From Thalassobius sp. Cn5-15 (GTDB lineage Bacteria > Pseudomonadota > Alphaproteobacteria > Rhodobacterales > Rhodobacteraceae), in NCBI RefSeq assembly GCF_022347685.1, contig NZ_JAKRGF010000003.1, positions 186,001 to 250,000 of the forward strand: a stretch of 64,000 nt of DNA, written 5' to 3'. The stretch's first letter is position 1, and the number at the start of each line of letters is the position of its first letter. Below the pieces are notes generated by a model that saw nothing but the letters and a program-made list of their open reading frames with translations, did not search any database and was not told the origin of the DNA. This document shows positions 47,182 to 51,077 of this stretch, piece by piece. The position numbers and the translations under genes were made by a program.

Positions 47182-47937
47182 ATGTTGTTGCTGCTCGACC
47201 GTTTGTCCCCGCTGCGCCTTTGCCTGCCCCGACTGTCCCTTGTGCAGGTCACGGCGCTGCTGATGGCCGCGGTTCTGTCCGCCTGCAGTGTGCCCGGATC
47301 GGATCCAGCTTATGCGCCCGGCTATGGCAACGGCAGTCAGGCTGTGGCGCGGCAGGTTGCGCAACAATTCATACAGGTGGTGGACACCGTGGAACCCGTG
47401 GCCGAACGCGAATGCCGTCGCCGCACGGTGGGATCAAACTGCGATTTTCTGATTGTGGTCGATGACCGTCCTGACCAGCCCCCCAATGCGCACCAGTTTG
47501 TCACCGATGAGGGGCAGCCAGTGGTAGCTTTTACCTATTCGCTGCTGGAAACCGTGCGCAACGCGGATGAACTGGCATTTGTCATGGGCCATGAGACGGC
47601 GCATCACATCGCTGGCCATCTTGACCGTCAGGCCGCCAGCGCCGAACGCGGCGCGGCCATTCTGGCCGGACTGGTCAGCGTGCGCGGCGGCAACGCCGCC
47701 CAGATTGAGGAGGCGCAGAAAATCGGCGCGCTGATCGGATCGCGCCGCTACTCGAAAGAGTTTGAACTGGAGGCAGACGCGCTGGGGACAGTGATCACTC
47801 TGAAGGCGGGCTTTGATCCTGTACGCGGGGCGGAATTTTTTAACCGACTGCCCGATCCGGGCAACCAGTTCCTAGGCACCCACCCGCCCAATGCGGACCG
47901 GCTGGCAACCGTGCGGCGCACCGCCGCCGCGCTCTAG
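47182..47937 (+). CDS. M48 family metallopeptidase lipoprotein
   Basis: The 251-residue protein has a signal sequence ending in lipobox AAVLSAC (Cys35) and a zinc-protease motif HETAHH (137-142) with the downstream Glu ligand in FELEADALG. It resembles BepA/LoiP-like periplasmic M48 proteases that degrade or fold outer-membrane proteins, but lacks TPR repeats. AAGGAG stands upstream of the ATG. Confidence 0.92.
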   Translation: MLLLLDRLSPLRLCLPRLSLVQVTALLMAAVLSACSVPGSDPAYAPGYGNGSQAVARQVAQQFIQVVDTVEPVAERECRRRTVGSNCDFLIVVDDRPDQPPNAHQFVTDEGQPVVAFTYSLLETVRNADELAFVMGHETAHHIAGHLDRQAASAERGAAILAGLVSVRGGNAAQIEEAQKIGALIGSRRYSKEFELEADALGTVITLKAGFDPVRGAEFFNRLPDPGNQFLGTHPPNADRLATVRRTAAAL

Positions 47938-47962
47938 CCCTTACGAAAACGAACCACACACC

Positions 47963-48316
47963 ATGCTACAGATTGAAAACGTCGTCAGCGACCGCGGGTC
48001 GCGCTACGCTGTATCTGGCGGTCCTGCTGCCAGTGAGGCAGAGGTTACGGCCTTCCTCAAACAGCTGAAACGGGCCAAGAAATACGCCAAAGCCACCCAT
48101 AACACGTGGGCGATGCTGCAATTGGACGGGACGCAACGCAAAGGCGACGATGGCGAAAGCGGCGCCGGAAACGTGATTCTACGGATGCTAGAACGCGAAG
48201 ACCTACGCGACCACATTGTGGTTGTCACCCGCTGGTATGGCGGCAAACATCTGGGCGGAGATCGTTTCCGCCACGTGCAAACCTGCGTAAACGCTTACCT
48301 AGAGGCACTCTCTTAA
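47963..48316 (+). CDS. IMPACT/YigZ N-terminal domain protein
   Basis: The 117-residue protein matches the UPF0029 (IMPACT) domain: FLKQLKRAKKYAKATHNTWA, DDGESGAGNVILRMLE and VVVTRWYGGKHLGGDRF. Typical YigZ is about 200 residues, so the C-terminal DUF1949 domain is absent. The IMPACT/YIH1 fold in eukaryotes touches GCN1; the bacterial role is unclear. The start at 47963 avoids overlap with the M48 gene, 25 bases upstream. Confidence 0.88.
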   Translation: MLQIENVVSDRGSRYAVSGGPAASEAEVTAFLKQLKRAKKYAKATHNTWAMLQLDGTQRKGDDGESGAGNVILRMLEREDLRDHIVVVTRWYGGKHLGGDRFRHVQTCVNAYLEALS

Positions 48317-48335
48317 GTATAGGTTCGGGCCTGGG

Positions 48336-48349
48336 TTGATCTGAATCAA
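48336..48349 (+). promoter_or_regulatory. FNR-type box upstream of DUF6455-type gene 1
   Basis: TTGATCTGAATCAA is an exact match to the FNR/FnrL consensus TTGAT-N4-ATCAA. It lies 61 bases before the ATG at 48411, a distance fitting an activator site upstream of a promoter. In Rhodobacterales FnrL responds to loss of oxygen. The binding protein is inferred. Confidence 0.7.
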
Positions 48350-48410
48350 TTCAGGTTGCGGGTTAGGTCACTAGTTAACGACTGGTCGACGATCCCAAAG
48401 AGAGCCCTTA

Positions 48411-48689
48411 ATGCAAAGCGACTCCCCAGATCGACTCCATACGGAGTTGTTTCATCACATGGCTGACGCCACAGGTGTAAACCTTGAGACAGAGTTGCTG
48501 AGCGGGCGCTTGAATCTTAACGATCTGACAAGTGCTATCGAACGCTGCAAAAACTGCTCTGGCCCCACAGCGTGTGAGGCTTGGCTGAAGCAGTCCCAAC
48601 CCAATCACGAAGAGACCCCGCCCGGCTACTGCCGCAATTCCGCTATGCTGCAGGTCCAGCGTGCCCTTGGCTACCTGTCCTCGGGATAA
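48411..48689 (+). CDS. DUF6455-type small four-Cys protein, copy 1
   Basis: The 92-residue protein has C-x2-C-x5-C at Cys46, Cys49 and Cys55 (RCKNCSGPTAC), Trp58, and PPGYCRN with Cys74; a helical stretch precedes (MADATGVNLETELLSG). The four Cys are shared by all four neighbours, suggesting a metal or Fe-S site. DUF6455 is the best family match I know; function unknown. An FNR-type site lies upstream. The 115-base gap to copy 2 holds a second FNR-type site, so copy 1 may be its own unit. Confidence 0.82.
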   Translation: MQSDSPDRLHTELFHHMADATGVNLETELLSGRLNLNDLTSAIERCKNCSGPTACEAWLKQSQPNHEETPPGYCRNSAMLQVQRALGYLSSG

Positions 48690-48739
48690 CCGCTGCGAAA
48701 GAAGAAGACGGCCACACACGCCTCCTGCACCTTTCCTGA

Positions 48740-48753
48740 TTGATCCGCGTCAA
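48740..48753 (+). promoter_or_regulatory. FNR/CRP-type box upstream of DUF6455-type gene 2
   Basis: TTGATCCGCGTCAA fits the FNR/Dnr-type half-sites TTGAT-N4-GTCAA, one base from the strict FNR palindrome. It is 51 bases before the ATG of copy 2 at 48805. FnrL or a Dnr-like nitric-oxide regulator could bind; this is inference. Confidence 0.6.
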
Positions 48754-48804
48754 AGACATACCTGCGATGCCAACCTAGCATAGGTCAGCTACGGAGGATC
48801 GCTC

Positions 48805-49092
48805 ATGAAACCTTTAGGAAATTTGAAGCGTCATTTCTGGTTGGTCAAACGCATGGCCAAAACCACTGGCGTAGATCTGGCAGCCGCCCGAGACGGCGGA
48901 CAGTTGTCGCAAAAAGACTGGGCACAAATGGTATCGCGCTGCCGCACCTGCAGCACGCCGGAAGCCTGCTCCAGATGGTTGGACAGCGCAGCACTGAACG
49001 GCGGCGCGGAGGTTCAGCCCGAATACTGCGAAAACAAGGACCGCCTGAACTCGCTGAAATCAGGCACAACAGCGCCCTGCGCAACAGACTAG
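48805..49092 (+). CDS. DUF6455-type small four-Cys protein, copy 2
   Basis: 95 residues with the same pattern as copy 1: GVDLAAARDGGQLS, RCRTCSTPEAC (Cys46, Cys49, Cys55), Trp58 and QPEYCENKDRL (Cys75). An extra C-terminal Cys (PCATD) is present. GGAGG eight bases before the ATG is strong. Copy 3 starts 15 bases after its stop, so copies 2-4 are probably cotranscribed from the promoter near the FNR-type site. Confidence 0.82.
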   Translation: MKPLGNLKRHFWLVKRMAKTTGVDLAAARDGGQLSQKDWAQMVSRCRTCSTPEACSRWLDSAALNGGAEVQPEYCENKDRLNSLKSGTTAPCATD

Positions 49093-49107
49093 GACAGGAT
49101 CGATCAG

Positions 49108-49368
49108 ATGGGACACCGCACAACACTGGGCTGCCCTGAACTGCATTTCTGGCTCAACCGGTCGGTTGCCCGCGCGGTAGGCGTTAATCTGAGCGAAGCC
49201 ATGGCCGAAGGCGATTTGACACCGCAGGGTTACGCGGAAATGGTGACACGCTGCCGGCAATGTCATCAGGCAACAGCCTGTCAGGAGTGGCTTTCGCAAA
49301 GCCCGTCCCATCACACCCCACCCGCGCATTGCCTCAACGCCGGAGAGATCGCACGACTGAAACACTAA
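49108..49368 (+). CDS. DUF6455-type small four-Cys protein, copy 3
   Basis: 86 residues: LHFWLNRSVARAVGVNLSEA, RCRQCHQATAC (Cys49, Cys52, Cys58), Trp61 and PPAHCLNAGEI (Cys75; the usual Tyr is His). The start HFWL resembles copy 2 (HFWLVKRMAKTTGV), suggesting these two are the closest pair. It has an additional Cys9. Confidence 0.82.
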   Translation: MGHRTTLGCPELHFWLNRSVARAVGVNLSEAMAEGDLTPQGYAEMVTRCRQCHQATACQEWLSQSPSHHTPPAHCLNAGEIARLKH

Positions 49369-49438
49369 CCACCCCACACCAAGGCCCCGCGCCCAACAAA
49401 CCATACCAATAGAACCTCACAGATACTCAGGACCCCCA

Positions 49439-49732
49439 ATGAGCTTCTTTGACCGACTGGTCCGCACGGTGGACCTGATGCCCAGACTGGCACAACGTCT
49501 GGGTATCAATTGGCAGAGCCGGATAGACCGTGACCCCTATGGGGCTGCTGAATACCGTGATGCCCTGATGCGCTGCGCGCAATGCCCTCATGACGCGGCC
49601 TGCCGCCAATGGGTAGAGCGTCTCATCGAAACTGATCAGCCACCGGATTATTGCAAGAACCGGGCGCTTCTGCTCAGGCTGAGCGCTGAAACTCAGTCAG
49701 AAACCAAAGCCGCAAGTGCGCTGCAGGATTAA
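49439..49732 (+). CDS. DUF6455-type small four-Cys protein, copy 4
   Basis: 97 residues: MSFFDRLVRTVDLMPRLAQR, then LGINWQSRIDRDP, RCAQCPHDAAC (Cys46, Cys49, Cys55), Trp58 and PPDYCKNRALLL (Cys72). It is the most diverged copy in its N-terminal part and has a Ser/Ala-rich tail. No FNR-type site lies in the 70-base gap before it. dgkA follows 68 bases downstream. Confidence 0.82.
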   Translation: MSFFDRLVRTVDLMPRLAQRLGINWQSRIDRDPYGAAEYRDALMRCAQCPHDAACRQWVERLIETDQPPDYCKNRALLLRLSAETQSETKAASALQD

Positions 49733-49800
49733 ACGCACAGACGCTTTTGCGCCTTGACCATCCCTTTGCCCCGACAGCATAAATCGGGGCGGAGGATCCA

Positions 49801-50151
49801 ATGACCAACTTTTTTGTTCGCCTGAAACATCGCTGCATCTGGAGCTGGGCCGGTTGGCTGGACAGTTGGCGCACCGAACATTCTTTCCGCAGCTGGGTCT
49901 GGGCTAATCTGGCCTCAGCCGCAATGGCACTGACCCTCTCCCTCAGTCCTGTTGAACGGGCGCTGATCCTTGCGCTGGGGCTTTTGGTGCTGGCGATGGA
50001 ACTGGTGAACTCCGCGATTGAACGGGTGGTGGACTATATATCAACCGATCACCATGAACTGGCTAAACAAGCCAAAGACGCGGGATCTGCCGCGGTTGCG
50101 GTCGCTGCGATTGCCACTGGTGTGGCTTGGATTGTGGTGCTGTGGGGCTAG
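49801..50151 (+). CDS. dgkA: Diacylglycerol kinase
   Basis: The 116-residue protein has three membrane helices and the DgkA catalytic stretch ELVNSAIERVVDYI followed by HHELAKQAKDAGSAAVAVA. It phosphorylates diacylglycerol to phosphatidic acid, recycling lipid released during membrane glycan synthesis. GGAGGA precedes the ATG. A likely partial operon with the DUF6455-type array upstream. Confidence 0.95.
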   Translation: MTNFFVRLKHRCIWSWAGWLDSWRTEHSFRSWVWANLASAAMALTLSLSPVERALILALGLLVLAMELVNSAIERVVDYISTDHHELAKQAKDAGSAAVAVAAIATGVAWIVVLWG

Positions 50152-50172
50152 CGCGCTAACCCACTTGCCAGA

Positions 50173-50631
50173 TCAGACGCTCTCTTCTTCGAGGTGCAGC
50201 TTCATCTTGATCAGAACCTGCTGCAGAGCAAGGGTTTCTCGCAACATACGCTTGGCCTCGTTGATACTGATCACACCGTCTTCGATCGACTGATTGTATT
50301 CCGCCATCAACATCGCAAAACGCTGACTCAACAAGATCACGTCAGCGTTGATGCCACCCGACCCTTCGGAATTGCGACGTTCATCATTCATCGACAGGGT
50401 AATGCCCTTCAGATCTGCCAGCGCGCTGGTGACATGTGGGAAGGACGCCGCCTCTTCCAGTGCAGCCACTGCATCCACTGGCATAAAACGATCCGCATGT
50501 TCAGCGTGATCCGAATAATAGCGTCCCAACGTGGCCTTGGATTTGCCGGTCAACTGGCAGGCTGCTTCGATGCCGACATCCTTGACCAAGGCTTCGGTGT
50601 GTTTCTTCAGATACCCGGAAACGACTGACAT
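50173..50631 (-). CDS. Hypothetical protein with helix-turn-helix-like N-terminus
   Basis: The 152-residue protein opens MSVVSGYLKKHTEALVKDVG, then EAACQLTGKSKATLGRYYSD, which fits a helix-turn-helix for DNA binding. The C-terminal half is helical and acidic (LRETLALQQVLIKMKLHLEE). No family named with confidence; a transcription regulator is the best guess. The frame extends 12 codons upstream, but ATG 50631 opens the conserved-looking part. Confidence 0.65.
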   Translation of the reverse strand: MSVVSGYLKKHTEALVKDVGIEAACQLTGKSKATLGRYYSDHAEHADRFMPVDAVAALEEAASFPHVTSALADLKGITLSMNDERRNSEGSGGINADVILLSQRFAMLMAEYNQSIEDGVISINEAKRMLRETLALQQVLIKMKLHLEEESV

Positions 50632-51077
50632 GATTGCCCCTTTACTGCCCGTGATGCGTGCCGTCACACACCCCCGGGGAAAACCAAACTTCCTTTCCCA
50701 TTAAACCGCCCGCTGGATTTTGTCATTTATAAAACCACGCAAGGCGGTCGTGCTGGGGCATTAAGCCCCGCCCTCGGGGGGATTTATGCAGCGGTGGGCC
50801 GGCTGGCGTGCGTAACCAGTGGTAGCTGTTTATTTGAGTTTAGTGCTGCCTGAGTAATCAGTGTCCCCTCTCCCGTCCAAGAGAGTGGTGGTGTGTATTG
50901 GCAAAAGATCAGGGGCCATCCCCATTGGGGCAACGTCCCATCCCTGATCTGGCAGGCCCGAATATATCGAAATTTCTCTGCGATATGGGTCTGCCATGCC
51001 ACGGTTCCGCAAGCGGCTTCACAGCCAGCTTGAAAAGCCGCTTGAAACCGTGCCCGTGGGCGGCGATAGAACCTGAC
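50632..51077. other. Gap with hairpin-rich tdk leader
   Basis: 446 bases without a credible gene. It holds three stem-loops: GGGGC-ATTAA-GCCCC near 50754, AGATCAGGG/CCCTGATCT (50907-50915 with 50942-50950) and a long imperfect hairpin at 51000-51052. The frame of tdk is open to 50898 but is not conserved-looking before 51078. Confidence 0.5.
50907..51052 (+). promoter_or_regulatory. Two stem-loops in the tdk leader
   Basis: The first pairs AGATCAGGG with CCCTGATCT (nine base pairs). The second pairs CACGGTT with AACCGTG (51000-51006 and 51046-51052) and AAGCGGCTT with AAGCCGCTT (51011-51019 and 51035-51043), leaving a 15-base loop and ending 25 bases before the ATG. No U-run follows, so it is not a plain terminator. 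Regulatory leader or palindromic repeat. Confidence 0.5.

Follow-up and report, generated by a model that had tools for sequence, protein, structure and literature searches.

Putative FnrL-type promoters before an old tandem array of four-cysteine DUF6455 genes in Rhodobacteraceae

A tandem array of four DUF6455 genes was found in the window (the whole stretch of DNA analysed, 64 kb in length), and at low oxygen these genes are most likely switched on by FnrL. In the arrangement that we propose, two FnrL-dependent class II promoters would direct the expression of four old paralogues, small helical proteins with four cysteines each. Sequence statistics support the promoter architecture and its conservation, the family assignment, the old duplication and the four conserved cysteines; the actual induction, the identity of the metal and the partner are what we infer. 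The earlier note had proposed an oxygen- or NO-responsive set of metal- or Fe-S-binding small proteins. The regulatory half of this idea is well supported at the sequence level, and the biochemical half is a reasonable hypothesis.

The four genes are consecutive open reading frames on the + strand, as the earlier note had described: copy 1 (paralogue group A, 48411..48689, 92 aa), copy 2 (group B, 48805..49092, 95 aa), copy 3 (group C, 49108..49368, 86 aa), and copy 4 (group D, 49439..49732, 97 aa). Profile searches of each copy, which the note had called for, gave 84.6, 103.4, 77.2, and 74.8 bits, respectively, so that all four are full members of DUF6455 (PF20056; curated Pfam cut-off 23.7 bits). 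The Pfam entry lists the function of the family as unknown. No further DUF6455 match besides the four copies was found in this draft genome (3,525,422 bases), and no Rfam family was detected in 47500–50800. The closest named relative of copy 3 among the best 80 of 133 loci was that of Thalassovita mediterranea (79% identity), which puts the organism in Thalassovita or close to it. Searches of one open-licence literature library, including combinations with PF20056, FNR, FixK, and low oxygen, yielded no functional study of DUF6455. A member of the family appears among the ethylene-affected transcripts of Azospirillum (+1.67 log2) in the accessible part of one report (PMC11819568).

Box 1 (TTGATCTGAATCAA, 48336..48349, + strand) is located 75 bp upstream of the start codon of copy 1, and box 2 (TTGATCCGCGTCAA, 48740..48753, + strand) 65 bp upstream of the start codon of copy 2. 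Both FNR-type boxes noticed earlier proved to be exact, and no other exact match to TTGATNNNNRTCAA was present in the window, where 0.2 box-like words are expected under a first-order Markov model. Copies 3 and 4 have no box of their own. Copy 3 begins 15 bp after copy 2, with which it probably shares a transcript; copy 4 begins 70 bp after copy 3. Genome-wide, TTGATNNNNRTCAA occurred at 21 distinct sites, compared to one per strand for the reversed control pattern. The surroundings of the 19 other sites were fetched as 17 pieces, and the adjoining genes were named by eye from translations. They included hemA, the fnrL/hemN region, the usp/ccoN (cco) region, ccoG, coxI, ctaC, and tldD; one further box adjoined a gene for a PPK2-like polyphosphate kinase. 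Since eight of the 19 boxes overlapped an open reading frame in the mechanical gene call, a match to the pattern does not by itself prove function, and some of these sites may be due to chance.

Putative -10 elements, TAGTTA (48372..48377, + strand) and TAGCAT (48776..48781, + strand), lie 22 nt past box 1 and box 2, respectively, with the spacing of a conserved TAnnnT. The promoter alignment comprised 87 boxes (85 from named loci, the best 80 of 133, and two from the window), of which 76 were left after dereplication at <75% identity. In these 76 promoters, the TAnnnT starting 22 nt past the box was conserved at 84% (T), 84% (A), and 83% (T), and it was the only strongly conserved element besides the box and the two bases following it. 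The 33 new loci that carry a box showed an exact TAnnnT at 22 nt in nine cases, at 21 nt in four, at 23 nt in four, and twice elsewhere between 10 and 35 nt. The -10-like signal is weaker here than in the first set, yet it peaks at the same spacing of 22 nt. A -10-like element at this distance places the box centre near -41.5, a position called almost optimal for Fnr-dependent promoters in the available text of a Dinoroseobacter shibae study (PMC5398030). Both boxes of the window thus fit the spacing of class II FNR promoters.

The box, the promoter spacing and the co-regulated set of this genome (by eye: hemA, hemN, usp, cco, ccoG, coxI, coxII, and tldD) match the FnrL/FNR core regulon of Alphaproteobacteria, to which several of the box-preceded genes belong according to the accessible sections of Dufour et al. 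(2010, PMC2908626). These sections make no mention of DUF6455. They list ortholog set 2905, a hypothetical protein of the FNR group without a Rhodobacter sphaeroides member, which could be DUF6455. The cluster would join the known FnrL regulon with a family of unknown function whose predicted fold is unmatched. A promoter anatomy kept over many genera places this family beside the genes for heme synthesis and high-affinity oxidase in a low-oxygen regulon, and the DUF thereby becomes a testable question.

Enrichment of FNR-type boxes near DUF6455 genes of related bacteria, on which the earlier note had made its proposal depend, was found in two sets of loci, 79 of 80 (the best 80 of 133) and 33 of 36. 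In a scan of 61 genomes (our own and 60 relatives), 25 carried DUF6455. The other 24 genomes contributed 27 cluster loci, which were searched with the pattern [AT]TGA[CT]N4[AG]TCA[AT]. The distance from the box to the first gene was at most 250 bp in 26/27 and at most 110 bp in 24/27; two loci had the box only at -200 and -221. The sole exception, with no box within 250 bp, was the lone copy-4-type gene of L062. Within the genus, a box preceded copy 1 in all six members having this copy and copy 2 in all nine members (window included in both counts).

The named set consisted of the best 80 of 133 loci from a protein-led scan of named genomes; nine of them share DNA with the 27 relatives' loci. 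The box was present within 160 bp before the first gene in 79 of these best 80, at -67 to -117 (median -74). The one exception was L186, in which an extra copy is located upstream and the box precedes the next three-gene cluster. Later genes of the same best 80 loci carried a box in 6 cases out of 147, five of them being copy 2 in loci with a Thalassovita-type copy 1 and the sixth belonging to L186; where the gap to the preceding gene was <30 bp, there was no box (0/118). Over the 635,206 bp of these loci, 94 box words were counted, vs. two for the reversed control. A further test took 40 Rhodobacteraceae genomes by best DUF6455 score, with a box at 37/40 loci, or 33/36 after removal of the four sharing DNA with the named set. 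The remaining three had, at -66, -70, and -72, a box with a single mismatch among its 10 fixed positions. In four more loci of the family, the box was absent twice (L272, L273). By these counts, the FNR-type box is a feature across the DUF6455 loci of Rhodobacteraceae.

DUF6455 was matched in 115 of 199 sampled Rhodobacteraceae genomes; its absence from the other 84 indicates an accessory function. Matches were found in 19 of 385 genomes of Alphaproteobacteria (17 above the cut-off) and in 29 of 398 genomes of Pseudomonadota (28 above the cut-off), two being outside Alphaproteobacteria. Outside the family, 23 genes were searched for TTGAYN4RTCAA up to 600 bp upstream of the domain. The box was detected at 7/15 and 6/8 genes, 13/23 altogether, and the other ten had no strict box. 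These counts exclude L108 and L109, two matches from the class-wide scan that score below the Pfam cut-off, lack the four-cysteine motif and are probable wrong-frame matches, and include L113, which is also below the cut-off and was kept for its four-cysteine motif (12/22 without it). One of the 13 is L269 (G840), a gene outside Alphaproteobacteria with an upstream TTGATGCGCATCAA box. The box also stands before the first gene in both Thioclava plasmid loci read. Two divergent DUF6455 genes, each with its own upstream FNR-type box, were observed in one distant genome (L197; G102; L106/L112). A single open frame at L195:1361-3229 encodes a GT4 glycosyltransferase with a C-terminal DUF6455 domain, possibly a fusion. 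A DUF1127-like N-terminal extension, suspected by eye in the distant long forms, received no Pfam support at E ≤0.01 in the one protein scanned (L198). No recurrent neighbour family was found at distant loci by Pfam search of 20 proteins (18 neighbours, one fusion and one DUF6455).

A tree was built from a chosen subset of 96 proteins; with 91 alignment columns it gave no firm order for many inner branchings, and the bootstrap had not converged. Copies 1–4 of the window fell into four clades of 25, 23, 31, and 12 proteins, with supports of 95/86, 97/84, 97/91, and 98/87, respectively. Their clade-mates are mostly proteins at the matching array position in other genera, with exceptions such as copy 1 of L141. 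Copy 1 is absent in three members of the genus, one of which is represented by an incomplete genome. Judged from the tree, the four copies are old paralogues whose clades are older than the genus, and the array is old, its order largely kept, with absences. The expansion by duplication suggested earlier was right, with the qualification that it is old, the four clades predating the genus.

Each copy contains C-x2-C-x5-C and a fourth cysteine 17–20 residues past the third: 46/49/55/74 in copy 1, 46/49/55/75 in copy 2, 49/52/58/75 in copy 3, and 46/49/55/72 in copy 4. The motif positions agree with the reported cysteines at 46, 49, and 55 in three copies. Conservation of the cysteines across the family, on which the proposal of metal binding hung, was seen in 258 of the 260 distinct proteins drawn from the named (best 80 of 133) and relatives' loci, 222 with Cx2Cx5C and a later cysteine and 36 with Cx4Cx3C and a later cysteine; copy 2 of L189 and L064 have neither pattern. 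All 36 shifted proteins are of the copy-3 type, mainly from Ruegeria and near relatives. Relative to the first cysteine, their second one has shifted from +3 to +5, with the first, third, and fourth unchanged. One cysteine has accordingly moved in one or a few events with the total of four kept. A shift with constant number fits modestly with ligands of one site. Its restriction to one paralogue group lowered our estimate for a metal site, which had stood slightly higher before. Metal or Fe-S binding by DUF6455 proteins is plausible from the sequence, and the four conserved cysteines are likely to form a metal site. Regulation by FnrL together with some metal site, taken jointly, appears moderately probable.

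Cx2Cx5C with a distant cysteine is the spacing of [4Fe-4S] sites in FNR, Wbl, Cas4/AddB, and EndoIII. In E. coli FNR, whose sensory-site cysteines are C20, C23, C29, and C122, the Cx2Cx5C is followed by one distal cysteine as in DUF6455 (PMC5398030, in its available part). Unlike FNR, the DUF6455 proteins have 86–97 residues here and no detected DNA-binding domain; FNR is the regulator and DUF6455 the likely target. WhiB1 is likewise a small helical protein with Cx2Cx5C and a fourth cysteine (C9, C37, C40, and C46), and its NO-sensitive [4Fe-4S] cluster is needed for partner binding, as stated in the accessible text of PMC5741622. The fourth cysteine of WhiB1 (Cys9) is N-terminal, whereas that of DUF6455 is C-terminal, so the arrangement of the Wbl family, Cx2Cx5C with an N-terminal fourth cysteine, is not that of DUF6455. 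The DUF6455 proteins also differ from Wbl in being mostly acidic and in having no Pfam or fold match to it. The N-terminal CX5CX2CX5C of RseC (PMC11729352) shares the Cx2Cx5C core, but its fourth cysteine is on the other side, and RseC belongs to the SoxR-reducing system as a membrane protein.

The four cysteines might instead bind structural Zn2+, in which case DUF6455 would be a zinc adaptor that is induced at low oxygen and senses neither redox state nor gas. Four conserved cysteines, one of them shifted with the number kept in one paralogue group, would suit zinc equally, and the helical models are well ordered. The cysteine spacing is as in [4Fe-4S] sites (numbers for FNR and WhiB1 from the accessible parts of PMC5398030 and PMC5741622) and low-oxygen expression suits a labile cluster; neither argument is decisive, and we consider the zinc explanation rather unlikely. 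At the predicted site, the balance tips slightly toward Fe-S rather than Zn.

AlphaFold2 gave confident all-helical models for copy 2 (pLDDT 88.8) and copy 4 (pLDDT 90.8). In these predicted models, Cx2Cx5C bridges two successive helices, from the end of the first to the beginning of the second, and the fourth cysteine is located just before the last helix. Foldseek found no match in the PDB at E 0.001 and, for copy 2, none among viral models; the PDB sequence profile search gave no match better than E 0.25. No known Fe-S protein was matched in sequence or fold by Pfam, the PDB profile search or Foldseek. Homology to Wbl or ferredoxins was considered and found unsupported by Pfam, PHROGs, the PDB sequence search, and Foldseek; a Pfam scan of the four copies reaching up to E = 1 contained no Wbl family. 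With no detectable solved structural relative and a four-cysteine site, the family is a promising candidate for a metal-site fold of a new kind. The proteins are mostly acidic (pI <7 in 72% of 227), which gives no hint of DNA binding.

The preferred reading is a compact helical bundle in which the C-x2-C-x5-C turn and one distal C-terminal cysteine would form a metal site. Its most likely occupant would be a [4Fe-4S] cluster that is labile to oxygen or NO. The protein would probably act in the low-oxygen state as a soluble adaptor or sensor on a protein partner, and what would set the paralogues apart is their partner or the lability of their cluster. A role as soluble adaptor or sensor is put forward tentatively. 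It is distinctly doubtful, going further, that DUF6455 proteins are new, fold-unique [4Fe-4S] gas/redox-sensing adaptors, made under FnrL control at low oxygen, whose cluster loss, once oxygen or NO returns, switches the hold on the partner. As part of that reading, they could be, by analogy in the way of working and not by descent, a proteobacterial counterpart of the WhiB-like proteins, an idea of the same speculative standing; equally speculative is that up to five paralogues per genome are each tuned to a partner or threshold of their own.

A role in redox chemistry or electron transfer, by a ferredoxin-like or dithiol/disulfide protein serving cbb3 or another low-oxygen respiratory chain, would agree with the small size and with the same type of box before the cco genes and hemA in this genome. 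We regard this as improbable: no conserved respiratory neighbour was seen, four paralogues occur in one genome, and no ferredoxin family came up in the Pfam scan of the copies, which reached up to E = 1.

Searches for the Crp HTH and cNMP-binding domains revealed one protein with both (64.2 bits), which is FnrL-like and encoded on contig C14 (the window is on C11). It has 248 aa and a Cys-rich N-terminal stretch, and its gene is located between hemN and a universal-stress gene (usp). The weaker HTH matches (≤29 bits), which extend over 30–44 positions of the profile, resemble regulators of other types. A further cNMP domain lies inside a 625-residue frame. No separate DNR/NnrR regulator was found in this draft genome by these domain searches. 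With a single FnrL-like regulator and no DNR/NnrR detected, FnrL is the likely reader of the boxes and a separate NO regulator is unlikely. Sites for FNR, FixK, and DNR are very similar (PMC2908626, in its accessible part), so an NO-responsive DNR/NnrR might read the boxes and the genes might answer to NO, not oxygen. A plasmid gene of Mesorhizobium ciceri, with a box at -65, is located near fixJ, genes for a PAS protein and a CBS protein, a Crp/Fnr gene, pseudoazurin, and NnrS, and the proximity of the Crp/Fnr gene and NnrS would suit such control. We consider it very improbable here, as the one protein found with both Crp/Fnr domains in this draft genome is FnrL-like.

FnrL control of the cluster is, in our estimate, highly probable. 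The box kept across the family, the class II geometry and the one FnrL-like regulator strongly support oxygen-responsive control. The oxygen part of the earlier proposal stands on sequence evidence, and the NO part is unlikely in this organism insofar as it needs a DNR/NnrR regulator; FnrL itself may respond to NO. As oxygen falls, FnrL would regain its Fe-S cluster, bind the boxes centred near -41.5 and bring RNA polymerase to the -10 element that lies 22 nt downstream. Copy 1 would be expressed from box 1, and copies 2, 3 and probably 4 from box 2, with read-through from box 1 into the later copies being possible. The conserved promoters suggest that marine Alphaproteobacteria switch on DUF6455 when oxygen is short.

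The suggested link to the following dgkA found no support, as dgkA was on the same strand in only 26 of the 80 named loci (best 80 of 133) and has no exact box before it in the window. That the cluster works as a component of a lipid module with dgkA (diacylglycerol kinase) is hardly credible, despite the same-strand position of dgkA downstream of copy 4 in the window, since dgkA was near the cluster at only 27/80 named (best 80 of 133), 10/27 relatives' and 0/17 further loci (14 of them outside the family), and upstream neighbours were better kept in the named loci (M48 peptidase in 78 and IMPACT/UPF0029 in 62 of the best 80 of 133). The better-kept upstream side makes the location look like a fixed chromosomal site, with dgkA not an operon partner. 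The small gene beside dgkA in the window (50173-50667, - strand) showed weak, below-cut-off matches to phage regulators of the CII/YmfL type, and a tblastn search with it found nothing in any of the 80 named loci (best 80 of 133). A downstream gene of the CDGSH iron-sulfur type, recognised by eye, was observed near 40 of the 80 named loci (best 80 of 133), in 39 of them on the opposite strand.
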